Below the pieces are notes generated by a model that saw nothing but the letters and a program-made list of their open reading frames with translations, ran no database searches and was not told where the DNA came from. From NCBI GenBank assembly GCA_001798595.1, contig MGSS01000125.1, positions 4,322 to 58,314 on the forward strand: a stretch of 53,993 bases of DNA. The letters are read 5' to 3'. The DNA is from Deltaproteobacteria bacterium RIFCSPLOWO2_12_FULL_60_19 (GTDB lineage: Bacteria; Desulfobacterota; Binatia; UBA9968). The position numbers and the translations under genes are program-made. Below are positions 15,288-36,406 of the stretch, piece by piece. Position 1 is the first letter of the stretch, and each line of letters begins with the position of its first letter.

Positions 15288-15300
15288 GGTTCACACCCTG

Positions 15301-16899: not shown

Positions 16900-16992
16900 C
16901 GCGCAGCTTCTCCTTCCTTCCGCTTCACCCTTGGGGCCGGTATGGGCTCTTCAAGCTCAGCCGATTCCTCCGATGTTCGTAGCTGACGTGGT

Positions 16993-18093
16993 TCATCTTC
17001 GAATGGCCCGGCAGCGTTGGGGCGGGAGATAGAGCCACACCTTCTGACCCCTGGAGAGATCAACGTCAGGATGAAGTTTCATGCGGACGATCTGCGAGTC
17101 GACCATGACCTGGCAATCCAACGAGTCGCCCATGAAGGCGACAATCTCCACTCTGCCAGGCAGGACGTTTTCTTGCGTGGTGGAACGGTCGTGACAGAGC
17201 GTTATATCTTCAGGCCGCACCAAGATCAGCACCGAATCCCCGCAAGCCGACCCGCTCGGCAGGAGGCAACGGAGCCGCCCGCTTGCCGTCTTTACCTGAC
17301 CGGTCGCGCCATTTTCTTCGCCCGGAGATTCAACGCTTCCTTCGATGAAGTTGGCCATGCCGATAAAATCGGCCACGAAGCGCTCGCGGGGCGACTGGTA
17401 AATTTCCTTCGGAGGCCCTTCCTGGACGATGACCCCCATGCTCATCACCGCCACAACATCCGACATCACCAGGGCCTCGATCTGATCGTGCGTAACGTAG
17501 AGAGTCGTAATGCCTAGTTGCTTCACCAGGTCGCAAATCTCCAGGCGAGTCTCCTCGCGCAACTTGGCGTCGAGGTTGCTCAGCGGCTCGTCCAAAAGGA
17601 GGACGTGGGGCTCCCGGGCCAAGGCTCGAGCCAAGGCCAGCCTCTGCTGCTGTCCGCCGCTTAAGAAAGGGGCCGGGCGCTTCTCCAGATCTCCCAACTT
17701 GACCAGGTGCAGCGCGCCCCTTACCTTTTCCTCGATCTCTTTCCCGCTGTAGCTCTTCTTCCCCTCGCGCAACGGAAGGGCGACGTTGTCAAAGACGTTC
17801 AAGTGGGGCCAGATGGCGTAGGACTGGAAAACCATGCCGACATCGCGCCGGTGAGCGGGGACGTGGATGGCTTGCCGGGAGGAAAAGACAATATGGTCGC
17901 CGATGCCGATCTCTCCGCTGGTCGGTTTTTCCAGACCGGCCACGCAGCGGAGCGTGGTCGTTTTGCCACAGCCGCTGGGACCGAGAAGCGTATAAAATTG
18001 TCCCTCGGCGACCTGAAGGCTGACCCCGCGAACGGCATCGACTTCCCCCTGTGCCGACCGATAGCGCATGTGGAGGTTCTCGATGCGGATCAT
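16993..18093 (-). CDS. ABC transporter ATP-binding protein (Fe(III)/spermidine type)
   Basis: A 366-residue ATPase that powers the importer encoded just upstream. Walker A GPSGCGKTT (~38-46), signature LSGGQQQRLALARAL, Walker B VLLLDEPLSNLDAKLREE and switch YVTHDQ are all present. A C-terminal TOBE-like regulatory domain follows (~270-366, LVRPEDITLC). The start ATG overlaps the permease stop as ATGA (18090-18093), so translation is coupled. The closest families are FbpC/PotA/CysA. A 93 nt gap separates it from the UbiD gene downstream; no promoter or terminator is evident there. The substrate is not predictable from the ATPase. Confidence 0.95.
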   Translation of the reverse strand: MIRIENLHMRYRSAQGEVDAVRGVSLQVAEGQFYTLLGPSGCGKTTTLRCVAGLEKPTSGEIGIGDHIVFSSRQAIHVPAHRRDVGMVFQSYAIWPHLNVFDNVALPLREGKKSYSGKEIEEKVRGALHLVKLGDLEKRPAPFLSGGQQQRLALARALAREPHVLLLDEPLSNLDAKLREETRLEICDLVKQLGITTLYVTHDQIEALVMSDVVAVMSMGVIVQEGPPKEIYQSPRERFVADFIGMANFIEGSVESPGEENGATGQVKTASGRLRCLLPSGSACGDSVLILVRPEDITLCHDRSTTQENVLPGRVEIVAFMGDSLDCQVMVDSQIVRMKLHPDVDLSRGQKVWLYLPPQRCRAIRR

Positions 18094-19841
18094 CTTCCAC
18101 CCACATCGGCCCTCTGTGTCCTGAAACCGACAGAGCGCACGAGCAAAGTCAGGAGAAGGAGAGAAAGCATGAGCAACGTGCCGATGGCGGCGGCCGCAGG
18201 AATATAGCCTTCATCCCACATATTCCAGATGAGGATCGCCAGCACCTGGTTTTGGGATCCCTCGTAGAGCATAAGAGGCATCCCGGCGATGCGCACGGCG
18301 TGCAGCACCACCCATATCCAGACGCCCGCGAAGGTGGGCATCATGAGAGGCAAAAAGATTCGCCGCATGGTGCGCCACGGCGGGAGGCCGCTGACATAGG
18401 CCGCCTCCTCGAGCTCTTTGTGGATCTGCAGCAAGGATGCGTTCATGGCGCGCGTCCCGTACGAGATAAAATTCGTGGTAAAGCCGATGACCATGGCCCA
18501 GATCGTCCCGTAGATGGGGAGAAAGTCGAGCCTCAGGAACACCCATACGAAAGCCAGGCCCATGACGATGCCGGGGATGGCGTGGGGAGCGAATGCAAGC
18601 TGATCCAGCAGCTTGCGGCCCCAGAAGCGGCTGCGCACGATCACCAGCGAGATGAAGAACGAGAGCAGCGTGGTGGCCGTGGCGGTCACCACGACCATGA
18701 TCGCGGTATTTTTCAGCGCCGATCCGACTTCCCCATAGGTCGCCAGGAGGCGATAGTTTTTTAGCGTGAAACTTTTCAGCGCTGCCGCCGAGGGTATCTG
18801 AAGATAGGGCAGGAAGGAGGCGTAGAGGAAAACCAGGAAGGGCAGCACGACCGCGAGCAAGAGATAGAGCGAGGCGACCGCCAGCGCGGGAATTTTCCAT
18901 GCGCCAAGCTCCTGCGGGCGAGGGCGGTAGCCTTTCCCGGTGATGATGGCGAAGCGCTCAGCGCGGCCGATCATGCGGCTGTAAAAGTAAGTAGTAACGA
19001 CGGCGATCAGGAGATAAATCATAGCCAGAGCGTTGGCCTGGCCGTAGACCGGCATGAGCGTGGCGGAATGGATGATCGCGTATATCTTCGTGCTGAAAAC
19101 GAAAATTCTTGAAGGCAGCCCCAAGATGCCCGGTACCTCGAATATCTCCAGGGCCGTCATCGCCTGATAGACCATGACAGCGAAGAGGCCTGGGGCGAGG
19201 AGGCGCAGGGTGACCTTGCGGATGGTGGCGCTGGGATTTATCCCGGAGGTGGCTGCCGCCTCTTCCAGCGCGGGATCCATGCTGCGGAGCAGGGGGATCA
19301 ACATCAAAAAGGCCGTCGGCACCAGGCGCAAGCCCTCGACAAAGATCATCCCGCCGAGGGAATAGATGTTGATGGGGGCCTCTGCCAAACCCAGAGATTC
19401 CATCAGCCCTCGGTTGATCATCCCGATGCGCGGACTCAAAAGCAGGACCCAGGCCATCGCCTGAAGCATGCCCGGAACCGCCAGCGTCATCGGCACTCCG
19501 GCATAGATCAGAATCTTTGCGGGCATATCGGTGCGCTCCACCAGCCAGGCCAGGGTCAGGGCCAGGCTGATACCCAGGGCGACGCTGCCGGAAACGTAGA
19601 TGACGGTATTTCCCATCAGCTCATAGGTGAGCGGGTCGAGATAGACCTTGAGATAGTTTTGCAGACCCGTTTGCGCGAGGCTGAAATCCGTCGGCAGGCG
19701 GGCGGTGCTGAAGCTGCCGAGAACGAGAAGGGAGAGTGGCGCCAGCACCAGGAAGGAGACCAAACCCAAGACAAGGTAAGGCCACGGATTGATATCCATA
19801 GCCCTCAGCCAAGGAACTCTGATCGCTTCTACCCTGAACAT
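18090..19841 (-). CDS. ABC transporter two-domain permease (Fe(III) type)
   Basis: A 583-residue fused permease with about 12 membrane helices in two homologous halves. Each half carries an EAA loop: PALEEAAATSGINPSATIRK in the first and ELEEAAYVSGLPPWRTMRRI in the second. Such FbpB/ThiP-type fusions import iron, thiamine or organic ligands. The start is uncertain: ATG 19841 has a weak AAGG site, and an in-frame ATG at 19799 (MDINPWPYLVLG) would begin just before the first helix. It is separated from the binding-protein gene by 67 nt holding a strong stem-loop, and overlaps the ATPase gene by 4 nt. Confidence 0.93.
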   Translation of the reverse strand: MFRVEAIRVPWLRAMDINPWPYLVLGLVSFLVLAPLSLLVLGSFSTARLPTDFSLAQTGLQNYLKVYLDPLTYELMGNTVIYVSGSVALGISLALTLAWLVERTDMPAKILIYAGVPMTLAVPGMLQAMAWVLLLSPRIGMINRGLMESLGLAEAPINIYSLGGMIFVEGLRLVPTAFLMLIPLLRSMDPALEEAAATSGINPSATIRKVTLRLLAPGLFAVMVYQAMTALEIFEVPGILGLPSRIFVFSTKIYAIIHSATLMPVYGQANALAMIYLLIAVVTTYFYSRMIGRAERFAIITGKGYRPRPQELGAWKIPALAVASLYLLLAVVLPFLVFLYASFLPYLQIPSAAALKSFTLKNYRLLATYGEVGSALKNTAIMVVVTATATTLLSFFISLVIVRSRFWGRKLLDQLAFAPHAIPGIVMGLAFVWVFLRLDFLPIYGTIWAMVIGFTTNFISYGTRAMNASLLQIHKELEEAAYVSGLPPWRTMRRIFLPLMMPTFAGVWIWVVLHAVRIAGMPLMLYEGSQNQVLAILIWNMWDEGYIPAAAAIGTLLMLSLLLLTLLVRSVGFRTQRADVGGR

Positions 19842-19852
19842 TAACCTTCAAA

Positions 19853-19900
19853 CGGCTCAAAGCGTTCAAAACGTTTTCTACATCTTGAACGCCTTGAACG
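19853..19900 (-). promoter_or_regulatory. Stem-loop between binding-protein and permease genes
   Basis: Arms 19853-19869 and 19885-19900 form an imperfect ~16 bp stem (8 bp core GCGTTCAA/TTGAACGC) around a ~15 nt loop. The arms are built of repeated GTTCAA-type units. In ABC operons a stable hairpin after the binding-protein gene protects the upstream mRNA and lowers permease expression; that is the probable role here. No strong U-tract follows, so it is not a simple terminator. Confidence 0.55.
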
Positions 19901-19908
19901 AAGTCTTG

Positions 19909-21069
19909 CTACCGTTTCTTTCCTCCCCCTCTCAGCCAGAGCTCATCCCACAACTCCAGGAGCTTGGGCTGGATCTCGATTTCGATGGCCGGATCTCTGA
20001 AAACGGTTTCTTTGCCGAAAATCTGGTCGCCAAACGGAACCAGCTCCTTGCGCTGCATCCCTTTGTGGACCGGCGGCGCATAGTCGGCATAGTACTGGGC
20101 GAGCTGCCCCTCTTTGGAGAGGAACCAGTTGACGAACAGAAAGGCGCCGTTGATGTTAGGCGCCCCTTTGAGAATGCCCATCTCGGAGACGGCGGCCGGC
20201 ACCGGTTCGGGGCACGCGTAACTCACGGGGCCTCCCTGCAGCACCTTCTGATAGGTGCGATACTCAGCGCTCGGGACCGTGGCGTGAAACTCTCCCGCCA
20301 CTAACAGCTCCAGCATGGCGTTCATCCCCTCTTTGCGGATTTGCGGTTTTACCTCCGAGAATAGGCGGCCAAGAAAATCCCTGAGCCATTTCTCCCCTCT
20401 GGCCTTCCACAGTTGCAGAGCCCAGAGCTGAGGACGGTTGCCCAGGGCGAGATTGCCGCCGCGCCATCTGGGGTTGGTCAGGAAATCTTCCCACTTCTTG
20501 GGGACCTCCTCTTTTTTTACCAGCTTGGTGTTGTAGGCCATGCACCAGTAGCGCATATGCATCCCTGCCCATAACCCCTCAGGGTCGCTGGTGTCCGGGG
20601 GGTTGTTTTTCCAATTGGGGAGGTGGCGCATGTCCTCCAAAGCGCCGGCCTCCTTGTACATGAAAAAGCTCCCCCCGATGCCGGTCAGGACATCGGTTAC
20701 ACTTCGCTTGTTCTTGAAGGCCACGATAGTTTTGACGGCGCGGTCTTCATGGCTGGCCCGGGAATATTCGATGGCGATGAAAGGGTAGCGTTCTTTGAAA
20801 GGCGTGAACATCTTTTCCGTCTGGGGCGGATCCCAGGTGGAAAAGATGCGCAGCTTGCCCTCTTTTTTCGCCCCGTCCGTCCATGCCTTGGGAACCGCCG
20901 TCTCCTTGTCCAATCCCTGGAGGATAGAGGGATCGAGCTTGAGCTCTTTCAGCATCTGCTGGGTGGACTTGGGCAGAGAAGTCGGGAGCTGAGCCCGGCC
21001 GTCGGACGGCAGTATGGCCGACACGAGACTGATACCTAGAGCCAGGAAGAAAAGTTTTCTCTTATGCAT
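19909..21069 (-). CDS. ABC transporter extracellular substrate-binding protein
   Basis: A 386-residue periplasmic binding protein of the Fe(III)/spermidine-putrescine class. A signal peptide is visible (MHKRKLFFLALGISLVSA, cleavage after about GRA at 26). Mature-chain hallmarks are KEGKLRIFSTWDPPQTEKMF, ALEDMRHLPNWKNNPPDTSD and YNTKLVKKEEVPKKWEDFL. ATG 21069 is chosen because AGGAGAAGG precedes it and the signal sequence starts there; a longer frame from 21102 has no such site. Downstream are its permease and ATPase. The binding pocket lacks an evident conserved Tyr-Tyr pair of ferric-binding proteins, so an organic acid ligand is plausible but unproven. Confidence 0.92.
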   Translation of the reverse strand: MHKRKLFFLALGISLVSAILPSDGRAQLPTSLPKSTQQMLKELKLDPSILQGLDKETAVPKAWTDGAKKEGKLRIFSTWDPPQTEKMFTPFKERYPFIAIEYSRASHEDRAVKTIVAFKNKRSVTDVLTGIGGSFFMYKEAGALEDMRHLPNWKNNPPDTSDPEGLWAGMHMRYWCMAYNTKLVKKEEVPKKWEDFLTNPRWRGGNLALGNRPQLWALQLWKARGEKWLRDFLGRLFSEVKPQIRKEGMNAMLELLVAGEFHATVPSAEYRTYQKVLQGGPVSYACPEPVPAAVSEMGILKGAPNINGAFLFVNWFLSKEGQLAQYYADYAPPVHKGMQRKELVPFGDQIFGKETVFRDPAIEIEIQPKLLELWDELWLRGGGKKR

Positions 21070-21092
21070 GGGCCTTCTCCTTTTAGACGACT

Positions 21093-23402
21093 TTACGAAC
21101 AAGCCCTTTTTTCCTTGAGCGCCGCGAGAATCTTCTCCGGCGTGATCGGCAAGCTTTTGATCTGTACACCGATGGCGTCATAGATTGCGTTGGCGATGGC
21201 CGGCGAGGTCGGGACCAACGTCATCTCGCCGATGCCCTTGGCTCCATGCGGTCCCTCGGGGTCTATCGTTTGAATCAGGTGCGACTCGACCGGCGGCATA
21301 TCTCTAACCGAGGGGATCTTGTACGCGGAGAAAGAAGCATTTACAGTTTGCCCCTCCTCCATAACCAAATCCTCGTAGAGCGCCTGCCCGAGCCCCATCG
21401 AGACCGATCCTTCGATCTGTCCCTCCGTGGCCATTGGGTTGATAGCGAAGCCGCAGTCTTGCGCCGCCACCAAGTTGATGACTCGAACCTCGCCGGTCTC
21501 GGGGTTGACCTCCACCTCCGCGCTCTGAGCCGCGAAGCTGTAAGCCGCGGAGACGTTGCCCCGTCTGGTTCTGGGGTCATAGTCGGTGGGAGGATTATAA
21601 TAGCCCCGGCCCATAATGGACTTTCCATCGGGAGAGTTAAGAGCCGCGGAGACAGCCGCTTGGAAAGTCATACCTCTTTGCGGCGAGCCTTTGACGCAGA
21701 TCCAACGCTCTCTGATTTCAAGATCGGCGCTATCGGCCTCCAGCCTCTCGGCCGCGACTTCAAGCACCTGCTTCTTGGCATCGCGGGCGGCGGCTAAAAC
21801 CGCGTTCCCCGCGACGAAGGTGGTGCGGCTGCCGTAAGCCCCAAGGTCCATCGGCGTGGTGTCGGTATCGGCGCTCACGACCCTCATATCCTCAAAAGCG
21901 ATCCCCAGCTCCTCCGCTACCAGTTGAGCCAGAACTGTGTTGGATCCCTGGCCGATGTCGGAAGCGCCGGTGAGGAGGCACACGCTGCCGTCCTCCTCGA
22001 GCTTTACGATGGCCGCGGAGGAGTCGTGCTCGAAGAAGAGCTTGCAGCCGCTGATGTAAGCGGCCGAGGCGACGCCGAAGCCCCGTAGGAGAGCCTGGCG
22101 CCCATTTCCACCTGAGCCATTCTGCGCCCGTTTTTTATGAAGACCGCCTCGCTCTGCCACCTTCTCAATGCATTCCGGCAGCCCGCAGGTGGTTACTTTT
22201 GCGCCCATGAGACTGGTCTCTCCGGGCCGGCGGACGTTTTTGAGACGCAGCTCCACCGGGTCTATGCCCAGCTCTTTGGCCATGCGCTCCATCATGCTGT
22301 CATCGGCAAAGCGGATCTGATTGTTGCCGAAGCCGCGCATCGAAGAGGTGACCGGATTATTAGTGTAGACGTGGTGGCCCTCGAAAAGGAAGTGCGGGAA
22401 GCGGTAAACCAGAGTCATTTGGCTTGCGCCCGAGGCCACGATCATGGGCCCCCGACCGTTGTAGGCTCCGCCGTCGGCAATCACGCGGCAGCGCTTCGCC
22501 ACCAGAGTGCCGTCCTTCATCACGCCGGCCTTTAAATAGATTTTCATCGGCACGCGACGGCGCGTGGCCGAGAACTCTTCCTCACGGTCATAGGCAATCT
22601 TCACCGGACGGCTCGTTTTTACGGCCAGAAGCGCGGCGCAGAAATCGCCCGCCGTCATCTCGCGCTTGCCGCCGAATCCGCCGCCGACAAAGGGCTTGAT
22701 CACGCGGATCTTGGACGAGGGCAGCTTCAGAGTGAGAGAGAGATCGCGGCGCAGATAGAAGGGTCCCTGGGTTGAAGACCACAGGACGATCTGTCCCCCA
22801 TCGCAGGCAGCCAAAGAGATATGCGGCTCGAGCGGGCAGTGAGCCACGCACTGGGTCTCAAAGGAATCTTCGAAGATAAAGTCGGATCGGGCAAAGCCCG
22901 CCTCCACATCGCCGAGGGGGATGTGAAGGGAGAGGCTTACGTTGTTTTCCACATGATCGTGGATGCGCGGCGCGCCGGGCCTCATGGCTTCCTCGGTGGT
23001 GAAGACGGCAGGCAGTGGCTCATACTCGACGTCGATCAGATCCAGCGCCTCGCGCGCCGTCTCCTCATCTACTGCGGCGACCGCCGCGACTTCGTCACCG
23101 ATGTAGCGTACCTTGTCCGTGGCAAGAGCGGCTTCGTCTCTCAGGTGCTCCAGCGCCCCGTACTTGACTCCGGCGGTATCCTTTCCGGTGACCACGGCCC
23201 GAACCCCGGCATGCTTCAAGGCTCGACTTGCATCGATATTCAAGATGCGGGCGTGAGGATAAGGACTCCGGAGAATGGCCCCGATGAGCATTCCCGGGAC
23301 GAACAGATCTCCGGTGAATTTGGCTTCACCGGTGACTTTCGTCACGGCATCGATCAGCGGGAGCCTCTTACCGATGACAGAGTAATTTGCGCAGTCTTTC
23401 AA
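21093..23402 (-). CDS. Xanthine-dehydrogenase-family molybdopterin-binding subunit (operon 1)
   Basis: A ~769-residue large subunit of a molybdenum hydroxylase, which hydroxylates aromatic N-heterocycles, purines, aldehydes or related substrates with water. Visible are the N-terminal YSVIGKRLPLIDAVTKVTGE, the GAYGSRTTF and GQALYEDLVMEEGQ segments, and the C-terminal GAKGIGEMTLVPTSPAIANA with the catalytic glutamate in GIGE. The CO-dehydrogenase loop AYxCSFR is absent. The start is set at TTG 23402, overlapping the stop of the 2Fe-2S gene as TTGA. Longer reading into the neighbouring gene gives nonsense for this family. It belongs to an FAD/2Fe-2S/Mo trio transcribed leftwards from 24789. Confidence 0.9.
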   Translation of the reverse strand: MKDCANYSVIGKRLPLIDAVTKVTGEAKFTGDLFVPGMLIGAILRSPYPHARILNIDASRALKHAGVRAVVTGKDTAGVKYGALEHLRDEAALATDKVRYIGDEVAAVAAVDEETAREALDLIDVEYEPLPAVFTTEEAMRPGAPRIHDHVENNVSLSLHIPLGDVEAGFARSDFIFEDSFETQCVAHCPLEPHISLAACDGGQIVLWSSTQGPFYLRRDLSLTLKLPSSKIRVIKPFVGGGFGGKREMTAGDFCAALLAVKTSRPVKIAYDREEEFSATRRRVPMKIYLKAGVMKDGTLVAKRCRVIADGGAYNGRGPMIVASGASQMTLVYRFPHFLFEGHHVYTNNPVTSSMRGFGNNQIRFADDSMMERMAKELGIDPVELRLKNVRRPGETSLMGAKVTTCGLPECIEKVAERGGLHKKRAQNGSGGNGRQALLRGFGVASAAYISGCKLFFEHDSSAAIVKLEEDGSVCLLTGASDIGQGSNTVLAQLVAEELGIAFEDMRVVSADTDTTPMDLGAYGSRTTFVAGNAVLAAARDAKKQVLEVAAERLEADSADLEIRERWICVKGSPQRGMTFQAAVSAALNSPDGKSIMGRGYYNPPTDYDPRTRRGNVSAAYSFAAQSAEVEVNPETGEVRVINLVAAQDCGFAINPMATEGQIEGSVSMGLGQALYEDLVMEEGQTVNASFSAYKIPSVRDMPPVESHLIQTIDPEGPHGAKGIGEMTLVPTSPAIANAIYDAIGVQIKSLPITPEKILAALKEKRACS

Positions 23403-23860
23403 GTTTTTGCCGTTTCCATGATCGCTTCGACAATCTTTACATAGCCGGTGCAACGGCAAAGGTTGCCGCTTAGAGCTTCTTTCACCTCGGCTTCCGTAGG
23501 GCGCGGGTTGCGGTCCAAAAGAGCTTTGGCCGAAAGGATCATTCCCGGAGTGCAGAAGCCGCACTGCACTGCCCCGTGTTGCACGAAAGATTCCTGAATC
23601 GGGTGGAGCTTGCCGTTTTGCGACAGCCCCTCGATGGTCAGGATCTCCCGCCCTTGAGCCTCCACGGCCAGAACCAGACAGGAAAGAAAGGGCTTGCCAT
23701 CGAGCAATACGGTGCAACTGCCGCAATCGCCGAGATTGCAACCCTCCTTGGCGCCCGTGAGGCCCAACTGCTCCCGCAGAACCTCGAGGAGAGTCCGGTG
23801 CGGATCGACGAGAAGCTCGTGGCTCTGGCCGTTAACCGTGAGTTCCAAGCTTTGCTTCAT
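23399..23860 (-). CDS. 2Fe-2S subunit of xanthine-dehydrogenase-family enzyme (operon 1)
   Basis: A 153-residue small subunit transferring electrons from the Mo centre to FAD. All eight cluster cysteines are visible: the plant-ferredoxin-type set in EGCNLGDCGSCTVLLDG and a following FLSC (N-terminal half), then the CGFCTPG and NLCRCTGYVKIV motifs (C-terminal half). Length and order match CoxS/XdhC-type subunits. It is 35 nt downstream of the FAD-subunit gene and overlaps the large-subunit start. The ribosome site is weak, so translational coupling is probable. Confidence 0.95.
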   Translation of the reverse strand: MKQSLELTVNGQSHELLVDPHRTLLEVLREQLGLTGAKEGCNLGDCGSCTVLLDGKPFLSCLVLAVEAQGREILTIEGLSQNGKLHPIQESFVQHGAVQCGFCTPGMILSAKALLDRNPRPTEAEVKEALSGNLCRCTGYVKIVEAIMETAKT

Positions 23861-23895
23861 GAGTCGGCCGTAGTAGTCAGGGAGCCGCCGGCGGG

Positions 23896-24789
23896 CTAGT
23901 TGCCGAGAGCTTCCGTCAGCGCCTTCCGCACCAGATACGAGGTCATCAGCCGGCGGTAGTCTGAGCGGGATCGGGGCGAAGTCTCGGCTGCGACTGTTTC
24001 GGAAATTTTTTGGATGAGAGCTTCATCCAATTTTTTTCCTTGGGTCATGCTCTCCGATTCAAGAGCCCTCGACGGTCTTGGCGCCACCGAGCCCAAGGCT
24101 ATCCTCGCCCGCCGCACCGTCTTATCTCTATCGGCGAATTCGAGTAGCACCGCGACAACCACCAAGGCCTCGTCCTCCGCGGTTCTCTTGGTTGTTCTCT
24201 GATAGGACCAACCATAGGGCTCGGCTGGCTGCGGAATTTTGAGTTCGGCCACGAGCTCGTCCTCTTTCAGCACGGTCGTGAAAGGGGCCGAGCAAAACTC
24301 CTCCACCGGGACCTCCCTCTCCGCTCTCGCGCTGATGACCCTTGCTTTGGCGCCCAGCGCGATCAGAGGGGGAACGATGTCCGCGGAAGGTGAGCCATTG
24401 CAGAGGTTGCCGACAAGCGTGCCTGCGGAGCGGATCTGTGGGCGGGAGAAGGTGCGACAGGCCTGCCACAAAAGCGGATAACTTTCCTTGACGATGGTTG
24501 AATCGGCCACATCGGCGTAGCTTGTGATGGGGCCTACGCTCAAGGTTTCTCCTGGAGAATATTTGAGGCGGGTCAATCCGGTTACCCCTTTAAGGCCTAT
24601 CACATAACAAGGGCCGCGCTCTTTCTTGCCCCACCGTCGAGATCCCTGGATCGAAGATCTTTTCTTGAGGTCGACCAGGAGATCCGTTCCTCCGGCCAAA
24701 ATCTTGGCCTGGTTTCCATATGTCCCAAGAAGAGCGGTCGCTTCTTCAAGGGTTTTGGGACTCAGATATTCGAAACGCGGAAGTCTCAT
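23896..24789 (-). CDS. FAD-binding subunit of xanthine-dehydrogenase-family enzyme (operon 1)
   Basis: A 297-residue medium subunit binding FAD (vanillyl-alcohol-oxidase fold). FAD motifs AKILAGGTDLLVDLKK (~30-45) and AGTLVGNLCNGSPSADIVPP (~120-140) are clear, followed by the C-terminal CO-dehydrogenase flavoprotein domain. It lacks the extra four-cysteine insert of 4-hydroxybenzoyl-CoA reductase beta subunits, arguing against that reductase. AAGGAG directly abuts ATG 24789, an unusually short spacing. It is the first gene of the long minus-strand operon and lies about 55 nt from the predicted start of a sigma-54 promoter. Confidence 0.92.
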   Translation of the reverse strand: MRLPRFEYLSPKTLEEATALLGTYGNQAKILAGGTDLLVDLKKRSSIQGSRRWGKKERGPCYVIGLKGVTGLTRLKYSPGETLSVGPITSYADVADSTIVKESYPLLWQACRTFSRPQIRSAGTLVGNLCNGSPSADIVPPLIALGAKARVISARAEREVPVEEFCSAPFTTVLKEDELVAELKIPQPAEPYGWSYQRTTKRTAEDEALVVVAVLLEFADRDKTVRRARIALGSVAPRPSRALESESMTQGKKLDEALIQKISETVAAETSPRSRSDYRRLMTSYLVRKALTEALGN

Positions 24790-24855: not shown

Positions 24856-24871
24856 TGCAAGGCACGTGCCA
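24856..24871 (-). promoter_or_regulatory. Sigma-54 promoter for XDH/ABC/UbiD operon
   Basis: On the minus strand TGGCACGTGCCTTGCA matches the sigma-54 consensus (TGGCACG-N4-TTGCW) at every conserved position, with the -24 GG and -12 GC separated by exactly 10 nt. The predicted transcription start is near 24845, about 55 nt before ATG 24789. Sigma-54 promoters require an ATP-dependent enhancer-binding activator; none is encoded in the window. Confidence 0.8.
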
Positions 24872-24945
24872 GGCAGACTATGAAACAAGGAGTGCTACAC
24901 GGCCCGCTCTTAAGGTTGTTTTAAATCGTCTATACGCCGTATCCT

Positions 24946-24993
24946 TTTCTTAGATTTGATAAAAACCCCGCATATTTTCCTACTGTCAAGAGG
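24946..24993 (+). repeat. Shared upstream element, copy A (putative activator site)
   Basis: About 48 nt starting TTTCTTAGATTTGATAAAAA and ending CAAGAGG align without large gaps to 34928-34978. TTTCTTA, TGATAAAAACC, a central AT.TTCC and the closing AAGAGG are shared. It lies 75 nt above the minus promoter and 143 nt above the plus promoter, a normal distance for enhancer sites. Confidence 0.55.
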
Positions 24994-25079
24994 AAGCAGG
25001 CGGTCTGGCTTTCCTGTCATCGGGAAGAGCGGTTGCCCAGCCGGCCTTGAACCGAACAGAGACTCCTGCGAGCCCTTAA

Positions 25080-25089
25080 GGTCGCGACC
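25080..25089. promoter_or_regulatory. Perfect 10-nt palindrome upstream of plus sigma-54 promoter
   Basis: GGTCGCGACC is a perfect dyad 46 nt upstream of the -24 element and overlaps one of two CTTAAGGT repeats. It is a candidate operator; a chance palindrome cannot be excluded. Confidence 0.35.
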
Positions 25090-25134
25090 GATTGCCTGCA
25101 GATCCGGTTGGGCCGGCGGCACGAGTCCTGCTGA

Positions 25135-25150
25135 TGGCATCTAAATTGCT
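25135..25150 (+). promoter_or_regulatory. Sigma-54 promoter for rightward ABC operon
   Basis: TGGCATCTAAATTGCT fits TGGCAYN-N4-TTGCW with 10 nt between GG and GC. The expected transcription start is near 25160, 40-45 nt before the ATG of a collapsed binding-protein gene at 25204. It should drive the transporter genes downstream. Confidence 0.72.
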
Positions 25151-25203: not shown

Positions 25204-25604
25204 ATGAGAAGACTCACGCTCCGTCGCTGCTACTTTTTCGTCACGCTCTTGGTGATTCCCGCCGAACGATCCGTGAGGACAGAGACGGGCTGGTCCAATA
25301 TATGAAGGCTCACCTGGAAGGGATCAAGGCATTTAAATCCCAGAAGGAGCTGATCCTCAACGTCATGGCCAAGTACCTGAAGATCGACGATCGCAAGCTT
25401 CTGGAAGAGTCCTATGGCCTCTATGCTCCGGACTTCATACCTGTGCCATATCCAAATACCGAAGGGATGAAGATCAGTTTTGAATATGTGGCCGTGACCA
25501 AACCTGAGATCATGAAGCACAGAGCTGAAGAGTTTGTGGACATGAGCTTCGTAGCCGACCTTGATGAAGGCGGGTTCATCCAGAAGTTGTACAGTGGAAA
25601 GTAG
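25204..25604 (+). pseudogene. Collapsed ABC substrate-binding protein gene (NMT1/SsuA-like)
   Basis: The gene has a proper start (GGAG then ATG 25204) and a signal-peptide-like beginning, MRRLTLRRCYFFVTLLVIPA. That frame stops at about 25305. A different frame, from about 25265 to TAG 25604, encodes only the last ~110 residues of a nitrate/sulfonate/taurine-type binding protein (DRDGLVQYMKAHLEGIKAFK, then SQKELILNVMAKYLKIDDRK). Some 200 middle codons are missing and the junction is out of frame, so this is an internal deletion. The sigma-54 promoter and ribosome site remain intact, so the remnant is probably transcribed as the operon leader. Confidence 0.75.
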
Positions 25605-25617
25605 AAGGGAACAGCAG

Positions 25618-26712
25618 ATGATCCACGAAAGACCGAGCGAGAGTGGTCATTGCTGGCGATTTGTCGGATCGGCCTGGCTTGTTGTCTTGTCGGTCTCGGG
25701 TCTCTTTCCGGGGAATGGCAACGCAATCACACCTACACAGGCGGAGAGACTGCCGCGACTCATTGAGGCGGCGCGCCGGGAAGGGGAGATCGATTTTGCA
25801 GGGCCTTCTTCGTTGACTCCAAAAGGGGCGCAGGCTCTGATTGCCGCTCTAAACAAGAAAAACGGTCTGGCGCTGAAGCTGAACTATGTCCCTTCAACCA
25901 ACTATCCGGCGGTGGTTTCCAGGGTTATCACGGAGATTCAAGCGGGGCAGGCTCCTACCTTCGACGCGGTCTACCTCACGGAATTCAACATGGCCAAGCT
26001 CCACAGCAGGGGCTTCCTTGATCCCTTCGACTGGCGCGGGATCTTTAACTACGTGACCAGAGACTCGATCCACTTCGATGACGGCGGGATTCTGATCGCC
26101 ACCATTTTCACCCTTCCCGTGTACAACACGAACCTGATAAAGAGCCAGGACTTACCTAAGCAATGGGAGGACCTCGTCTCCCCCAGGTGGAAGAAGAAAT
26201 TGGTGGTGGCCAAGTATGTCCAGCACTGGGTCTCTCTTTCCGAGGTCTGGGGAGAAGAAAAGAGCGTTGAGTTTCTCAAGAGGCTCCGGGCGCAGGAGCC
26301 TCTCTACGCGCTCTATCCGGAAATCCAGACCCGGTTGGCCTCAGGTGAGTACGCCCTGGCCGCTAGCCAGGTCTCACCGTTCGTGGAGGTCGCAAGACAG
26401 CGGGGTATGCCCATTGACTATGTGGACGGGGTGACGCCGGTTCCGGTGCTCTTCGACATGATGGGAGTGCCGAAAAGGTCGCGCCATCCTAATGCCGCCC
26501 GGCTCTTCGTCGCCTTTTCTCTTACGCCCGAAGGGCAGGCGGTCTGGGCCGATTTCACCGGCAGGTCCTCTCTCTTTATCCCGGGCACGCCCGCGGCGAA
26601 ATTCGGGCGCGGGAAAAAGCTCCTTATGAGGAACATGAAAGCCCTCGTGGAAAATCCCGAACGGTTTGAAAAACTGGAGAATAAGTTTGCCGATGCGCTG
26701 GGCATAAAATAG
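25618..26712 (+). CDS. ABC transporter extracellular substrate-binding protein
   Basis: A 364-residue Fe(III)-type periplasmic binding protein. ATG 25618 follows AAGGGA, and the N-terminus carries a signal sequence with an unusually long polar region before the hydrophobic core (FVGSAWLVVLSVSGLFPGNG, cleavage near GNA). Mature motifs include EGEIDFAGPSSLTPKGAQAL, VYNTNLIKSQDLPKQWEDLV and RSRHPNAARLFVAFSLTPEG. It precedes a dedicated two-domain permease (26866). The gene stops at TAG 26710-26712, but the same frame stays open with protein-like sequence to 26853, so the original protein may have been longer. Confidence 0.9.
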   Translation: MIHERPSESGHCWRFVGSAWLVVLSVSGLFPGNGNAITPTQAERLPRLIEAARREGEIDFAGPSSLTPKGAQALIAALNKKNGLALKLNYVPSTNYPAVVSRVITEIQAGQAPTFDAVYLTEFNMAKLHSRGFLDPFDWRGIFNYVTRDSIHFDDGGILIATIFTLPVYNTNLIKSQDLPKQWEDLVSPRWKKKLVVAKYVQHWVSLSEVWGEEKSVEFLKRLRAQEPLYALYPEIQTRLASGEYALAASQVSPFVEVARQRGMPIDYVDGVTPVPVLFDMMGVPKRSRHPNAARLFVAFSLTPEGQAVWADFTGRSSLFIPGTPAAKFGRGKKLLMRNMKALVENPERFEKLENKFADALGIK

Positions 26713-26853
26713 CCGCGAGCTTCCGTCCAGGAAACTCCGGCGTGGAGGACCGCCCGAGGCAACGAGATCCTTTTTAGCGAAATGGATTTTATATTGCGGA
26801 GAGAACCGGAACTCACTCAGCGCTACGGAAGGATCATCGGCCTGAGAAGATAG
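26713..26853 (+). other. In-frame coding-like extension beyond the binding-protein stop
   Basis: Reading on in the same frame past TAG 26710-26712 gives 46 codons of credible protein (ARGNEILFSEMDFILRREPE, then LTQRYGRIIGLRR) before TAG 26851-26853. The ending resembles the C-terminus of the binding protein at 28611 (AQDYRRIFIERR). It could be a premature amber stop in an originally longer gene, readthrough, or a leftover of another binding-protein gene. Otherwise the 153 nt gap to the permease is empty. Confidence 0.4.
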
Positions 26854-26865
26854 GAAGCAGAGTCC

Positions 26866-28608
26866 ATGCGAGCGGGGGTCATGCGGGCTTTGACATGGCG
26901 AGCGCCGGAGATCCGGTTGCGGAATCCGGGTCTTTGGGCGATCGGGTCGATGTCTTTAGTGGCTTCCTTTTTCATCATCCTTCCTGTCCTCACCATTATT
27001 CTCTCCAGTTTTCGCGTCGGCCTTCCCGGGGAGTTCTCTCCTCTAACCCTCGCAAATTATCGCGAAGCGTTTTTCGATCCTTTCACCTGGCAGGTGCTGG
27101 TGAACACACTCTTCTTCGCCTTAGGCACCGTTGTTGTCATTCTCTTCTTCGCGGTTCCGTCCGCCTGGCTCATTCAAAGAACCGATATCCCGCTTAAAAA
27201 GCTTTGGCTCACCCTGCTGGCGCTCGGAATCGTCATCCCGACTTTTCTCAAGGCGATCGCCTGGATCCTGCTTTTGAGCCCGCAAATCGGCATCGTCAAC
27301 AGGCTGTTGATAGACGCCTTTGGCCTCAGTGGTCCGCCTTTCAACATTTACAACATATGGGGCATGTCCTTCGTCCAGGGCGTCATTCTGACTCCTCCCG
27401 CCTTCTTTATGATTGCCGCGGCTTACAAATCGATGGATCCAAGCTTGGAGGAGGCTTCCTATGCGAGCGGTGCGAGCGGCCTTGTGACCTTCATTCGTAT
27501 TAATTTCCCGCTTAGTCTACCCGCGATCATTGCCGCTACACTCTATCTGTTTATCACTGCCATCGAGGTTTTTGAGGTTCCGGGCCTCATCGGTGCACCG
27601 GCGCGCATCTTTGTCTTCAGCACTCTCATTTACTATGCCACCCATCCTGAGGTGGGACTTCCCAAGTACGGTCTGGCCGGCGGCTATGGCATGATCGTTC
27701 TGGTCTTGGCTTTACTTGGCAGCTACTTTTATTATCGCGTCATCCGCCAGAGTCACAAGTATGAGGTGGTCACAGGAAAGGGGTACCGGCCAAAACTGGT
27801 CGAGCTTGGGCGATTGCGAGGCTTGGCGATTCTTTTCCTTCTTATTTATTTCACTCTCGAAATCTTTCTCCCTTTCCTTACCCTGGTCTGGGCTTCATTG
27901 GTGCCCTATATCCAGGTTCCATCCGCGGAGGCGTTTACTAAGGTCACTCTGGCCAACTATCTCAAGGTTCCCGACTATGCTGGCCTCAGGCCTTTTTTAA
28001 ACACCGCGCTCCTCATGCTGATTGCTCCGACCATCAGCATGGTCTTTAGCCTGATTCTCTCTTGGGTTGTGATTCGCTCTAAGGTCAAGGGACGCTACGT
28101 GCTGGACGGAGTCGCCTTTCTTCCTCACGCAGTGCCCAGCATTCTGTTCGCCGTGGCGCTCTCGTACTTAGCTCTCGCCTACCGGGAGTTTTTCCCCGTT
28201 TACGGTACGTTAACCATCATCGTTTTGGCCAACTCCATCAAATACATCAGCTTCGGTACCCGTACGGTCAACGGAGCGCTGATCCAGATCCACCACGACC
28301 TGGAAGAGGCTGCTGAGGTTTCGGGCGCCTCCAAGGTAAAGGTTTTGTCTTCGATTATCACTCCTCTGCTTGGTTCGGCCCTGCTCAACGGTTGGCTGTG
28401 GATCTCCCTTCTTGCGTTCCGGGAAGTGACGATGGCTTTGACGCTGAGCTCGCCGAAAAATGTGATGCTCTCCACGTTGGTGTGGAACCTGTGGAGTGCT
28501 GGTTACGTGCCCGAAGCGGCGGCCTTGGGGGTTATGATGGTATTTGTATTGGGTGGCTTTTTGGTGCTGGCACGAAAATTGGGCGAGAAAGTAATTGGAG
28601 GCTTATGA
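26866..28608 (+). CDS. ABC transporter two-domain permease (Fe(III) type)
   Basis: A 580-residue fused permease with two sets of about six helices. The EAA loops are PSLEEASYASGASGLVTFIR and DLEEAAEVSGASKVKVLSSI. It is paired with the binding protein at 25618 and followed directly by another binding-protein/permease pair, with only one ATPase (31430) for both. Its TGA overlaps the next gene's possible start as ATGA. Two start candidates, ATG 26866 and ATG 26881, differ by five residues; neither has a strong ribosome site. Confidence 0.93.
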   Translation: MRAGVMRALTWRAPEIRLRNPGLWAIGSMSLVASFFIILPVLTIILSSFRVGLPGEFSPLTLANYREAFFDPFTWQVLVNTLFFALGTVVVILFFAVPSAWLIQRTDIPLKKLWLTLLALGIVIPTFLKAIAWILLLSPQIGIVNRLLIDAFGLSGPPFNIYNIWGMSFVQGVILTPPAFFMIAAAYKSMDPSLEEASYASGASGLVTFIRINFPLSLPAIIAATLYLFITAIEVFEVPGLIGAPARIFVFSTLIYYATHPEVGLPKYGLAGGYGMIVLVLALLGSYFYYRVIRQSHKYEVVTGKGYRPKLVELGRLRGLAILFLLIYFTLEIFLPFLTLVWASLVPYIQVPSAEAFTKVTLANYLKVPDYAGLRPFLNTALLMLIAPTISMVFSLILSWVVIRSKVKGRYVLDGVAFLPHAVPSILFAVALSYLALAYREFFPVYGTLTIIVLANSIKYISFGTRTVNGALIQIHHDLEEAAEVSGASKVKVLSSIITPLLGSALLNGWLWISLLAFREVTMALTLSSPKNVMLSTLVWNLWSAGYVPEAAALGVMMVFVLGGFLVLARKLGEKVIGGL

Positions 28609-28610
28609 TT

Positions 28611-29690
28611 ATGACGGATTACAAAAAAGCTTCGCTGCGAATTTTGGCAGGGTCGATCTTTTTCGCTCTCTTGCCCTCCTCGGCCTATCCGCAAAGCCCC
28701 GAGGAGATTTATGCCGCGCTGGCGAAGTTGCCTCCCCAAGAGCGCCAACAGAGACTCATCGCAGGGGCGAAGCGGGAGGGAGTCGTGGTGGTGTACGATA
28801 CCAGCGCGCGGCAAGAGCTTCGCGAATTCGAGACGGCGCTCAGGACGAAATACCCTTTTCTCAAGGTCGAAGCCGTGACCGCCAGCCGGGGCAAGCTCCT
28901 GGAGCGCGTCTTGACCGAAAGCCGCGTCGGCCGGCATCTCGCCGATATCATCGGGATCGGCTCCACGGAAGACGCAGTCCTGATTCAGAACGGGATTCTC
29001 GCCCGTTATTCGTCGCCCGAGTTTCAATATCTTCACTCCGGCCTGGCGGGCCGGGACGGCTACTGGGTCGCCACCCGGCTCAGGACTTATCACATCGCCT
29101 ACAACACCAAGATCGTGCGCAAAGAGCAGGCGCCGAAGCGCTGGGAAGATCTGCTCGACCCCCGGTGGAAGGGAAAACTTGGAATGGCCGATGACGCTTA
29201 CTTTTGGTTCGGAGCGCTCGAGAATTTCTGGGGGAAAGAAAAGGCCCACGATTTTTTCCGTCGGCTCGCCGAGCAGCAGTTGCTGATCCGCAAGGGCCAT
29301 AGCCTTTTGGCGGAGCTCCTCGCCGGGGGTGAGTTCCCGGTGGTGGTGGGAATGTATGGCCACCGCGTCGCTCTTGTGAAGAAAAGAGGAGCGCCCGTGG
29401 AGATGGTCAATCCGGACCCGGTTGTCGGCATCGTCGGGACCGTCGGCGTTGCCAAGCGCGCCCCTCATCCCCACGCGGCGGCGCTGACGGTGGATTTCAC
29501 CATCTCCGAGGAAGGACAGAAGCTGAATGTGGAGCAGATGCGTGGAGCGAGCCGCAAGGGCGTCCCCCACCCCTACCTGGAGCGCATCGAGGCCCTCCGC
29601 ATCCAGTACGACACGCCGGATCTTTACCCGCCGGGGCGTTACGAGCAGATCGCTCAGGACTACCGCCGGATCTTTATCGAAAGGCGTTGA
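28611..29690 (+). CDS. ABC transporter extracellular substrate-binding protein
   Basis: A 359-residue periplasmic binding protein with signal peptide MTDYKKASLRILAGSIFFAL (cleavage near AYPQ). Motifs include GAKREGVVVVYDTSARQELR, YNTKIVRKEQAPKRWEDLLD and HPHAAALTVDFTISEEGQKL, typical of Fe(III)/2-aminoethylphosphonate-type receptors. GGAGG (28597-28601) lies 9 nt before ATG 28611; an alternative ATG at 28605 overlaps the permease stop as ATGA but leaves only 3 nt. The end overlaps the TTG start of the next permease. It probably supplies ligand to the permease at 29687. Confidence 0.92.
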   Translation: MTDYKKASLRILAGSIFFALLPSSAYPQSPEEIYAALAKLPPQERQQRLIAGAKREGVVVVYDTSARQELREFETALRTKYPFLKVEAVTASRGKLLERVLTESRVGRHLADIIGIGSTEDAVLIQNGILARYSSPEFQYLHSGLAGRDGYWVATRLRTYHIAYNTKIVRKEQAPKRWEDLLDPRWKGKLGMADDAYFWFGALENFWGKEKAHDFFRRLAEQQLLIRKGHSLLAELLAGGEFPVVVGMYGHRVALVKKRGAPVEMVNPDPVVGIVGTVGVAKRAPHPHAAALTVDFTISEEGQKLNVEQMRGASRKGVPHPYLERIEALRIQYDTPDLYPPGRYEQIAQDYRRIFIERR

Positions 29691-31426
29691 GCGGCTTGGA
29701 CGTATCGAGCGGGACAAAACAGAGACGGTTCTGGGACTGGAAATGGCTGATCCTCGGCCTGGTAACTCTTATCCTCCTCTATCAGGTTCTTGTCCCGCTC
29801 TTCTTCCTCGTATTCGGGAGCTTTAAGACCGTTCCTCCGGGTCACCCCGACTATCTCAGTCTCAAGTTGAGCCTGGCCAACTATGCCCGCGCTTATGGGA
29901 GCGCGGGCTTCTGGCAGGCCACGCAGAACTCCTTCATTTTTGCCGCCTGCGTAAGCACCCTGGCCTTCATTGTGGGCTCTTTTCTCGCCTGGATCACCGA
30001 GCGGTCCAACACACCGCTCAGAAAGCTGATTTTTCTCCTTGCAGTGGTCCGGGTCATCATGCCGGGAATCCTCATTACGATCTCTTGGGTGCTGCTTTTG
30101 AGTCCTGAGATCGGCATCCTCAACCAGATCTTCCAACGGCTCTTCGATTTGGCGAGCCCACCGTTCAATATTTACAGCCTGGCTGGGATGATTTGGGTCG
30201 AGACGGTTGAAGTTATTCCCCTGGCATTTCTCCTCATGGCCGGAACTTTCCGCTCTATGGACCCCAATCTGGAAGAAGCCTCTCTTACCTGCCGCACGGG
30301 GGTTTTCGCCACCTTTCGCCGCGTCACGTTGCCTCTGGCTTTGCCTTCGATCCTTTCAGTCTACATTCTCCTGTTTCTCCGCGTGATCGACGCCTTTGAG
30401 GTGCCTGCGATCATCGGAATGCCGGCGGGGATCCACGTCTATTCCACCAAGATCTATCTTACGGCGACCTCGGCCCCTGCGGACCACGGCCTGGCGGGCG
30501 CTTATGCGATGACCCTCCTTCTTCTCTCCGCTTTCCTGGTCTCTCTTTATATCAGGCTCACCGGTGAGGGGGCCAGGTTTGTCACGATCACCGGCAAGGC
30601 CTACCGCCCTCGAGCCTTCGACCTGGGATCCTGGAAATACGCGACCTGCGTCTCGTCGCTGCTCCTCGTCTTCGGCACTTTCGGTTTGGCCTTTTTCGTC
30701 ATCGTCTGGTCGTCCCTTTTGCCCTTTTATCAGAGCCCTTCCTGGGAAAGCTTTGCTTTGGTCGGCCTGCGGAATTACCACGAGTTGTGGAACTACCCGT
30801 TTGCTCTGAATGCGCTCAAGAACAGCGCGATCCTCGGCTTGGGGAGCGCGACGGTCGTGATGCTGCTGGCGGCGCTGGTCTCCTACATCGTTGTCAAAAC
30901 CCGACTTCGTGGAAGAGCGCTCCTGGACATACTCGCGTTTTCTCCCATTGCCATTCCGGGGATGACGTTGGCCCTTGCGGTCATGTGGGTCTATCTCGTT
31001 ATCCCCATCCCGGTTTACGGCACCCTATGGATCATCTTCCTCGCCTACGTCACAAAATATATGGATGTCTCCACCAGGATCATGTCAGCCTCCTTTAAGC
31101 AGCTCTCCAACGAACTGGAGGAGGCCTCGCTGGTTTGCCGCGCAAGCTGGCGCAGGACCTTTTTTGTCGTCCTGCTGCCGCTTCTCAAGCCGGGCTTTAT
31201 GGCGGGTTGGATCTGGATCATCATCCACGCGTTCCGTGAGCTCTCCATCGCCATGATGCTCTACTATTCCGGCACCGAGCCCATTTCGGTGGCGATCTTC
31301 GATCTCTGGGAGGGAGGGTCCTACGGCGTGCTGGCCGCCTTGGGCGTCGTGGTTTTCGCGATCATGTCGTTTCTGGTCACGATCTCGAAAAAAATCAGCG
31401 AGCGGTTCGGGGTGAGGGAGGCGTAG
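29687..31426 (+). CDS. ABC transporter two-domain permease (Fe(III) type)
   Basis: A 579-residue fused permease with EAA loops PNLEEASLTCRTGVFATFRR and ELEEASLVCRASWRRTFFVV. In both loops the usual SG after the EAA core is replaced by CR, a feature not shared by the permease at 26866, so the two contact the common ATPase slightly differently. The start is taken as TTG 29687, overlapping the previous stop (TTGA) and preceded by AAGG; TTG 29696 is an alternative. The ATPase gene follows 3 nt after the stop. Confidence 0.92.
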   Translation: MSGLDVSSGTKQRRFWDWKWLILGLVTLILLYQVLVPLFFLVFGSFKTVPPGHPDYLSLKLSLANYARAYGSAGFWQATQNSFIFAACVSTLAFIVGSFLAWITERSNTPLRKLIFLLAVVRVIMPGILITISWVLLLSPEIGILNQIFQRLFDLASPPFNIYSLAGMIWVETVEVIPLAFLLMAGTFRSMDPNLEEASLTCRTGVFATFRRVTLPLALPSILSVYILLFLRVIDAFEVPAIIGMPAGIHVYSTKIYLTATSAPADHGLAGAYAMTLLLLSAFLVSLYIRLTGEGARFVTITGKAYRPRAFDLGSWKYATCVSSLLLVFGTFGLAFFVIVWSSLLPFYQSPSWESFALVGLRNYHELWNYPFALNALKNSAILGLGSATVVMLLAALVSYIVVKTRLRGRALLDILAFSPIAIPGMTLALAVMWVYLVIPIPVYGTLWIIFLAYVTKYMDVSTRIMSASFKQLSNELEEASLVCRASWRRTFFVVLLPLLKPGFMAGWIWIIIHAFRELSIAMMLYYSGTEPISVAIFDLWEGGSYGVLAALGVVVFAIMSFLVTISKKISERFGVREA

Positions 31427-31429
31427 CTT

Positions 31430-32539
31430 ATGTCCGTTGAGATCCGCAACCTAACCAAAGTATTCGGCGTCGGGGAGAAAGGAGTCTTTGCCGTGCGCGG
31501 GGTGAGCCTCACGGTGGAAAAGGGGGCCTTTCTCACTCTTTTGGGTCCGAGCGGCTGCGGCAAGACCACCACGCTTCGCTGTCTTGCCGGTCTGGAGCGT
31601 CCCGATGAGGGCGAGATCATTCTCTCCGGTCAGGTCGTAGTCTCTACGAGCAGAGGAATCTACATGCCCGTGAACCAGAGACCGATCGGCATGGTGTTTC
31701 AATCGTATGCCATCTGGCCCCATATGACGGTATTCCGAAATGTCGCCTATCCCCTTCAGAGCATGGGCATCGCTAAGGGCGAGATCCGCCGCAGGGTTGA
31801 GCACTGCCTTGAGCTGGTTGGGTTAGGTCGCCTGGAGCAACGCCTTGCCCCGAATTTGAGCGGCGGAGAGCAGCAGCGCGTCGCTCTGGCGCGCGCCCTG
31901 GTCATGGAACCTGAGGTCCTTCTGCTCGACGAGCCGCTCTCCAACCTCGATGCCAAGCTGCGCGAAGGGATGCGGGTGGAGATCCGCCGGCTCCAACGTC
32001 AGTTAGGGATCACCACGGTTTATGTGACTCACGATCAAGTGGAGGCGCTCAGTATGTCCGACATGGTCGGCGTCATGCACAATGGAAGGCTCGTGGAGCT
32101 GGACACGCCGCGAGGGGTTTATGAGCGCCCGCGCACGAGATTCGGGGCTGAATTTATCGGCACGGCCAACCTGGTTCGCGGCCGCCGGAGCGGGCTAAGC
32201 GAGGGAGGATGGAAAGCGGCGGAGACGGAGCTGGGAACCCTGTGCTATGCCTCACCCGGCTGCTCCGAGCCGGCCGGCGAGGAGGTAGATTTCCTCATTC
32301 GTCCCGAGGATATCTGCGTCAGCCCGCACTCTGCGGCCGGGCCTGAATCGAACATGCCCAATCGATGGCGCGGGGAAGTGACGCAAGCGATCTTTCTCGG
32401 CCCCGATCTCGACTGCGAGGTGAGCGTGAGCGGGGTTCGACTGCGCGCGCGCCTGACCCGCTCGCACGAGCTTAAGGCCGGCGATCAGGTTGACGTCTGT
32501 ATCGATCCGCAAAACATCAAGCCCTTGATGCGTTATTGA
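31430..32539 (+). CDS. ABC transporter ATP-binding protein shared by two permeases
   Basis: A 369-residue ATPase with Walker A GPSGCGKTT, signature LSGGEQQRVALARAL, Walker B VLLLDEPLSNLDAKLREG, switch YVTHDQ and a C-terminal TOBE region (FLIRPEDICVSP). GGGAGG precedes ATG 31430. It is the only ATPase for the two permease/binding-protein pairs upstream, so it presumably energises both, as multitask ATPases do in some sugar systems. It belongs to the same family as the ATPase at 16993 but is clearly diverged. Confidence 0.94.
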   Translation: MSVEIRNLTKVFGVGEKGVFAVRGVSLTVEKGAFLTLLGPSGCGKTTTLRCLAGLERPDEGEIILSGQVVVSTSRGIYMPVNQRPIGMVFQSYAIWPHMTVFRNVAYPLQSMGIAKGEIRRRVEHCLELVGLGRLEQRLAPNLSGGEQQRVALARALVMEPEVLLLDEPLSNLDAKLREGMRVEIRRLQRQLGITTVYVTHDQVEALSMSDMVGVMHNGRLVELDTPRGVYERPRTRFGAEFIGTANLVRGRRSGLSEGGWKAAETELGTLCYASPGCSEPAGEEVDFLIRPEDICVSPHSAAGPESNMPNRWRGEVTQAIFLGPDLDCEVSVSGVRLRARLTRSHELKAGDQVDVCIDPQNIKPLMRY

Positions 32540-32594
32540 CGCGTTATTGATGAGTTACTAGGAGCGGCGAAAACAAGAAGAGGAGGCGCATGAA

Positions 32595-33623: not shown

Positions 33624-33665
33624 ACGTCGTGTTCGGTTCGATTCATTTCTGCGCGAGGTGAGCTT

Positions 33666-34916: not shown

Positions 34917-34927
34917 TCGCATCGCCG

Positions 34928-36389: not shown

Positions 36390-36406
36390 GGCGGAAAGAG
36401 CAGGAG

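Follow-up and report, generated by a model that had tools for sequence, protein, structure and literature searches.

Bacterial enhancer-binding proteins (bEBPs) of the aromatic-sensing XylR/DmpR type act from an upstream dyad to switch on aromatic catabolic operons through sigma-54. The orange protein complex of Desulfovibrio vulgaris was reportedly the subject of a 2011 paper of Fievet. According to another report on this species, it has divergent sigma-54 operons with a common predicted bEBP motif and a sigma-54 promoter consensus of tGGcacg/tTGCt, and 6 of its 13 one-component bEBPs are encoded divergently from their targets (PMC4641369). For Geobacter/Geotalea, two accounts state that sigma-54 is required for the bss operon, and that BamW, of BamVW, rises as a protein with aromatic substrates (PMC11497800 and PMC7324539). 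Here we describe an intergenic region between two divergent operons of Deltaproteobacteria bacterium RIFCSPLOWO2_12_FULL_60_19, in a stretch of 53,993 nucleotides (the window) which extends from position 4322 of contig C125 to the contig end at 58314, in a genome (G000) of 4.19 Mb and 162 contigs. This region is probably a divergent sigma-54 control region, in which a bEBP bound to a dyad drives both operons and related ones elsewhere.

A first-pass annotation had placed one sigma-54 promoter at each end of the region. Both are present exactly as given there, in sequence, coordinates and strand:

24856..24871, minus strand: left promoter, sigma-54 -24/-12 element TGGCACGTGCCTTGCA, exact sequence, matrix score 17.82
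25135..25150, plus strand: right promoter, sigma-54 -24/-12 element TGGCATCTAAATTGCT, exact sequence, matrix score 19.83, the best in the window

Both elements keep GG-N10-GC and conform to TGGCAC-N5-TTGCW. The left one has a terminal A, as do 4 of the 46 strict sites in the genome, itself included. The distance to the first genes had been put at 40-60 nt; this holds for the right motif, 53 nt from ATG 25204 (which opens a frame of just 33 codons, the start of a deletion remnant), and not for the left motif, 66 nt from ATG 24789.

The same annotation had proposed that rpoN and enhancer-binding proteins be sought in the same genome and that a weight matrix be scored over it, and both checks came out in its favour. 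There is one rpoN match (E 6.5e-62), and the bEBP AAA+ domain has 21 matches, 16 of them full and strong. The strict pattern TGGCAYNNNNNTTGCW has 46 genome matches, the left and right sites among them, against 5 for its reversed control; for TGGCAYNNNNNTTGCS the figures are 25 and 5. In the window, a consensus allowing two mismatches is not enriched (18 found, 19.5 expected), so that only more stringent tests can tell. A matrix trained on 52 other sigma-54 sites of the genome gave its four highest scores in the window to 25135(+) at 19.83, 35018(+) at 17.85, 24871(-) at 17.82 and 52683(+) at 16.96, followed by 14.16. All four precede genes in the correct orientation, so the pair is part of a larger set. 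In 100 first-order Markov simulations, scores of 17.84 or more (where the 35018 site stands, marginally higher than the left site) arose 0.03 times per window, and the 19.83 of the right site was never reached, the highest simulated peak being 19.74. The two best scores of the reversed matrix in the window were 16.67 and 15.6, which puts the 52683 site near noise and the first three above it. A called reading frame lies downstream of 47 of 55 sigma-54 sites in the genome, with a median motif end-to-start distance of 67 nt, and the left and right sites fit the others both in score and in start distance. Their distances were read from the sequence; genome-wide pairing gave 312 and 151 nt, from internal or wrong starts, because of the simple start rule, the cut locus and the remnant. 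The two further elements are:

35018..35033, plus strand: third sigma-54 element TGGCATGAGAATTGCG, matrix score 17.85, the second best in the window, 36 nt before ATG 35070
52683..52698, plus strand: fourth sigma-54-like element TGGCACGGAGATTGCG, score 16.96, near noise, some 200 nt ahead of a frame (52899) for an NMT1-like binding protein

Both have G as their last letter, where the strict pattern asks for W, so that of the two sigma-54 patterns only the wider one covers them. ATG 35070 is preceded by AAGGAG.

Room for a shared enhancer had been noted between the promoters, and a specific candidate, a dyad with a second copy ahead of the 35018 element, can now be named:

24945..24964, no strand assigned: enhancer-like 20-bp dyad TTTTCTTAGATTTGATAAAA (TTTTCTTA-N4-TGATAAAA), 73 nt from the left -24 and 170 nt from the right -24
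34927..34946, no strand assigned: second dyad copy GTTTCTTAAACGTGATAAAA, with one difference, 71 nt upstream of the 35018 element
24943..24994, plus strand: ungapped 52-bp block, 38/52 identical to 34925-34976

The block has a local alignment score of 34, the best of 3000 Markov shuffles reaching 26. No dyad was found at the 52683 element. The pattern TTTCTTANANNTGATAAAAACC, built from the two window copies, matches the genome without mismatch only at these two, and with 2 mismatches at a third place on contig C71; the latter lies about 1.3 kb from the only site of that contig scoring at least 14.5 and was discarded. A near-match on C99 (1-2 mismatches) was likewise rejected: it falls inside an ABC ATPase-like frame, with no sigma-54 site of score 12 or more within 1.5 kb.

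When the dyad intervals were compared with the regions upstream of the 55 sigma-54 sites (those of the window skipped), the best match was on contig C154, scoring 29 to the 35018 region and 25 to the other window region, with a next best of 25. The C154 copy, TTTTCTTATACTAGATAAAA, lies 83 nt from the sigma-54 element TGGCATCGTAATTGCG. The core TTTCTTANAYKWGATAAAA occurs exactly at the two window copies and on C154, and at no fourth place in the genome; it is the consensus of the very three copies that it matches. When the regions upstream of 46 sigma-54 sites were compared all against all, the top 20-mer match across three regions again joined the left promoter, 35018 and C154, with 15 of 20 columns, a value that two triples reached. 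From the C154 sigma-54 site, the operon runs through a 322-aa frame resembling a substrate-binding protein (SBP), UbiD, an SBP, UbiD, HydA and HydB, all identified, except the first frame, by similarity to window proteins. Contig C122 repeats the divergent layout of the window; its two sites are 70 nt and 85 nt away from a weaker dyad copy, TTTTCTTAAATGTCGGAAAA. The 70-nt side is an aldehyde dehydrogenase promoter; the 85-nt side is a weak plus-strand site, TGGCCCGCTTATTGCT (score 13.4), before UbiD. The C122 and C154 copies have GGCGGCGTTTTCTTA in common.

Enhancers of bEBPs lie some 70-200 nt upstream of the promoter. The spacings to the -24 element are 71, 73, 83 and 170 nt for the exact-core copies and 70 and 85 nt for the C122 copy, as befits an upstream activating sequence common to the promoters of related operons. 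Each exact-core copy stands 71, 73 or 83 nt from the -24 element of a UbiD-bearing operon, a near-constant spacing. The integration host factor consensus, WATCARNNNNTTR, was not found in any of the three intervals with an exact dyad. For a wider dyad class, TTTTC-N8/N10-GAAAA, the counts upstream of sigma-54 sites suggest enrichment, with variable spacing: at no more than 1 mismatch, N10 occurs in 8 and N8 in 7 of 85 regions, and the other spacers from 4 to 16 in 0-4.

The genes flanking the region appear to be built in both blocks for the uptake and breakdown of aromatic compounds:

11201..24789, minus strand: left operon, 11 genes
25204..25604, plus strand: deletion remnant of a TauT/NMT1-type binding protein, with a 33-codon signal-peptide-like start and the C-terminal third in another frame
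25618..34916, plus strand: right operon, first part, with two SBP/permease sets, an ABC ATPase, a luciferase-like monooxygenase and an M24 peptidase-like gene
35070..50422, plus strand: right operon, second part, behind the 35018 element

The count of 11 leftward genes agrees with the first-pass annotation. The left operon encodes FAD, 2Fe-2S and molybdopterin subunits of an oxidoreductase resembling 4-hydroxybenzoyl-CoA reductase or xanthine dehydrogenase, the best match of its large subunit being 4-hydroxybenzoyl-CoA reductase alpha (785 bits, under the 995-bit cut-off). It then encodes an ABC transporter (SBP, permease and ATPase), a UbiD protein, a protein with a sub-threshold SBP match, a PaaK-like AMP-binding ligase, a second UbiD protein and a protein resembling phenylphosphate carboxylase gamma. 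Its first gene has a best match of 44% identity in other genomes (11 loci at 32-35% in one contig scan), relatives so distant that their intergenic region cannot serve for direct footprinting. Transporter genes are present on the right as had been proposed; that the first of them is a remnant had escaped notice. Its C-terminal third aligns at 52-56% identity with seven full-length relatives (332-346 aa), in which the match begins at residues 217-234 and runs almost to the end. Such TauT/NMT1-type C-termini have 42 matches in this genome; the related genomes G008 and G020 gave about 290 first-look candidates each, and all 82 of the 82 that were scored matched. The second part of the right operon encodes a 439-aa protein (35070-36389) that matches neither Pfam nor NCBIfam, hydantoinase B and A (the latter nearest to caprolactamase alpha, 645 bits, under the 1000-bit cut-off), Mo-hydroxylase subunits, three UbiD proteins, an NMT1-type SBP and an ornithine cyclodeaminase-like protein. 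No regulator gene, bEBPs included, was recognised among the window proteins scanned.

The UbiD family has 64 matches in the genome, five of them in the window (11511-12950, 15301-16899 and 43999-48375) and several clustered on C14. Few have a sigma-54 site upstream: in the position lists, a same-strand site within about 15 kb occurs only on C125, C154 and C17, at about 8 kb in the last case. The first genes behind other sigma-54 sites of the genome (20 scanned) include three of the HGD-D family and one aldehyde dehydrogenase, along with VIT-family, cytochrome c, nucleotidyl transferase, polysaccharide deacetylase and other genes. HGD-D is the 2-hydroxyglutaryl-CoA dehydratase family, which includes benzoyl-CoA reductases. 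Divergent sigma-54 pairs are not unique to the window, because two further ones, 132 and 146 nt apart, lie at C153:10713-10876 and C154:43596-43773. At loci L063 (C110) and L057 (C141) there are several sigma-54 sites, most of them reading TGGCACGYGCCTTGCT, and the 200 nt ahead of each are alike (20-24 of 24 in the best stretch, with GGGTAACCGAT in common); a bEBP of 877 aa on C141 has no recognised sensor domain.

Across 25 family genomes, there were 15 cases of the half-site TAAGAAAA at 62-90 nt ahead of a sigma-54 element: 3 in this genome and 12 in 10 of the 24 others; for the relatives roughly 1-2 would be expected, a figure scaled on the assumption of 71 sigma-54 sites per genome. Half of these 12 sites precede catabolic or uptake genes: two amidohydrolase_2 genes, a BamA-type hydrolase (TIGR03200, 525 bits against a cut-off of 464), an NMT1 SBP, an ABC permease beside UbiD and a PaaA-like gene (below cut-off). 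The first genes at the remaining six are an AAA_22 protein, a hemerythrin, NapD and one without family, and two sites have no called gene.

Which protein might bind the dyad? Tentatively, the best candidate is a bEBP of about 315 aa (L014:1477-2424, on C154), encoded divergently from the dyad-bearing UbiD operon. Scanned with a longer start, it has no receiver or sensor domain by Pfam. Full-length orthologues (77-81% identity) occur in 14 of 22 genomes of the same family, with partial matches in 2 more. The bEBP gene is followed by a sigma-54 site and an AAA_33 gene, both here and at 4 of the 14 orthologue loci. Two genomes of another genus (G018 and G022) have a sigma-54 element and a UbiD gene some 0.7 kb past the start of the bEBP, on the other strand, and a further small frame seems to intervene; in both, TTTTCTTAAATTTAGC, one dyad half, stands 40 nt (from the 20-mer end) ahead of the element. 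This UbiD gene and half-dyad beside the bEBP are a lead towards the C154 protein as activator, and not a proof. A scan of 17 bEBP proteins, of which one is a fragment, gave a receiver domain above cut-off in 10 and an XylR_N or V4R domain at E <= 1e-3 in none; a classical XylR/DmpR-type aromatic sensor was thus sought among them and not found. More speculative is the proposal that this sensorless bEBP was recruited within this lineage to run a multi-locus regulon of UbiD decarboxylase, Mo-hydroxylase and lactamase-like genes through a TTTTCTTA-N4-TGATAAAA enhancer.

In the mechanism that we propose, sigma-54 RNA polymerase would occupy the two elements 24871(-) and 25135(+). An enhancer-binding protein, bound as an oligomer to the dyad 24945-24964, would loop to activate both promoters, the left one at the dyad distance of the other copies and the right one further away. 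Through the second dyad copy, the same activator would switch on the 35018 promoter. The left operon, both parts of the right operon and the C154 and C122 operons would then come on together, one protein presumably binding all copies of what would be its recognition site. The signal may be an aromatic or heteroaromatic substrate.

Several observations weigh against this scheme. The best 20-mer triple is only modestly significant alone, being equalled in 1 of 40 Markov null sets, and this null is somewhat easy, because the 46 real regions gave 585 similar pairs against a null mean of 391. The C122 copy has 3 mismatches from the core, a level expected by chance: at up to 3 mismatches, TTTCTTANAYKWGATAAAA has 9 genome matches in all, against 17 in the control. 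In 28 relatives, the full dyad at up to 2 mismatches is not enriched over a reversed control. None of the 14 full-length orthologue loci of the C154 bEBP, some of them shortened by contig ends, carries the dyad at up to 3 mismatches, while 2 carry a 4-mismatch match. The 52-bp likeness of the two window copies could reflect duplication, and the right promoter is far from the dyad and leads into a pseudogene.

A first alternative, which we hold to be unlikely, is that the promoters are real sigma-54 promoters, each with an activator of its own, and that the dyad is the operator of another kind of regulator or a leftover of regulatory DNA duplicated between related operons. The likeness of the window copies does reach beyond the dyad, the C154 copy has some likeness, over 21 nt on one side, to DNA flanking the 35018 copy, there is partial relatedness among the operons, and the lack of enrichment in relatives agrees with it. 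On the other hand, alignment of the C154 copy with the one between the promoter pair is confined to the 20-nt dyad, yet the spacing of the C154 copy to its own promoter is similar, and distances of 70, 71, 73 and 83 nt suit an enhancer. A second alternative appears quite improbable to us, namely that only the left and 35018 promoters matter, the 25135 element being left over from a binding-protein gene since lost, with the transporters read from another promoter. Its starting point is that about the last third of the first right-hand protein is kept, and that 170 nt separate the dyad from the right promoter, as against 71-83 nt elsewhere. Against it, the matrix ranks the right site first in the window, the stop of the remnant lies only 13 nt before the ATG of the next binding-protein gene, and no sigma-70-like site was found in 24700-25900 (0.6 expected).

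The regulon had further been suggested to respond to nitrogen or to aromatic compounds. Nitrogen-responsive control by NtrC would accord with the use of sigma-54, and the hydantoinase/caprolactamase-like and Mo-hydroxylase genes could conceivably release nitrogen. However, neither control interval contains the NtrC-type dyad TGCACY-N5-RGTGCA at up to 3 mismatches, and its count over the window, 43, shows no enrichment against the 50.9 expected. The nitrogen reading is therefore not favoured, and we consider it very improbable; as for the aromatic reading, the 17 bEBPs scanned yielded no sensor of the classical XylR/DmpR type. Taken as a whole, the first-pass observation is real and has firmer support than the letters alone could give it. 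Its interpretation is borne out in part, by rpoN, by the likeness of the pair to other sigma-54 sites, by the candidate enhancer and by some sigma-54 sites before catabolic genes; its NtrC side is not favoured, and the set is wider than the pair. That the sites are chance matches and a housekeeping sigma factor drives the operons is scarcely credible, for although the two-mismatch consensus is unenriched in the window, the strict pattern is strongly enriched genome-wide and the four best window sites are correctly oriented ahead of genes.

With a dyad-bound bEBP as the probable common activator, the promoter pair becomes a concrete putative regulon of five or six promoters in a UbiD-rich lineage, for which an enhancer-like sequence can be named and an activator suggested. 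Learning which of the 64 UbiD matches switch together, and by what, would be a route to their substrates. A single search among open-licence papers found none that combines sigma-54, UbiD and "enhancer binding protein". The D. vulgaris sigma-54 operons with a cognate bEBP (the type III secretion system, ohc and the orange protein complex) resemble what is seen here in promoter consensus and in having bEBP genes that often lie divergent from their targets. They differ in that the cargo here is UbiD, Mo-hydroxylase and ABC uptake, with no bEBP gene recognised in the window. Beside sigma-54 control of anaerobic aromatic degradation in Geobacter/Geotalea, the genome studied here offers only a candidate activator; UbiD/hydantoinase operons do not figure in the accessible parts of those accounts, and UbiD has no match in that of PMC11497800. 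With the XylR/DmpR regulons the window shares a dyad upstream of catabolic operons with sigma-54 promoters; the sensor domains of their activators were not found among the 17 bEBP proteins scanned. We read the proposed mechanism as ordinary textbook sigma-54 control; what appears to be new is the specific dyad and the multi-locus UbiD regulon that it may define.
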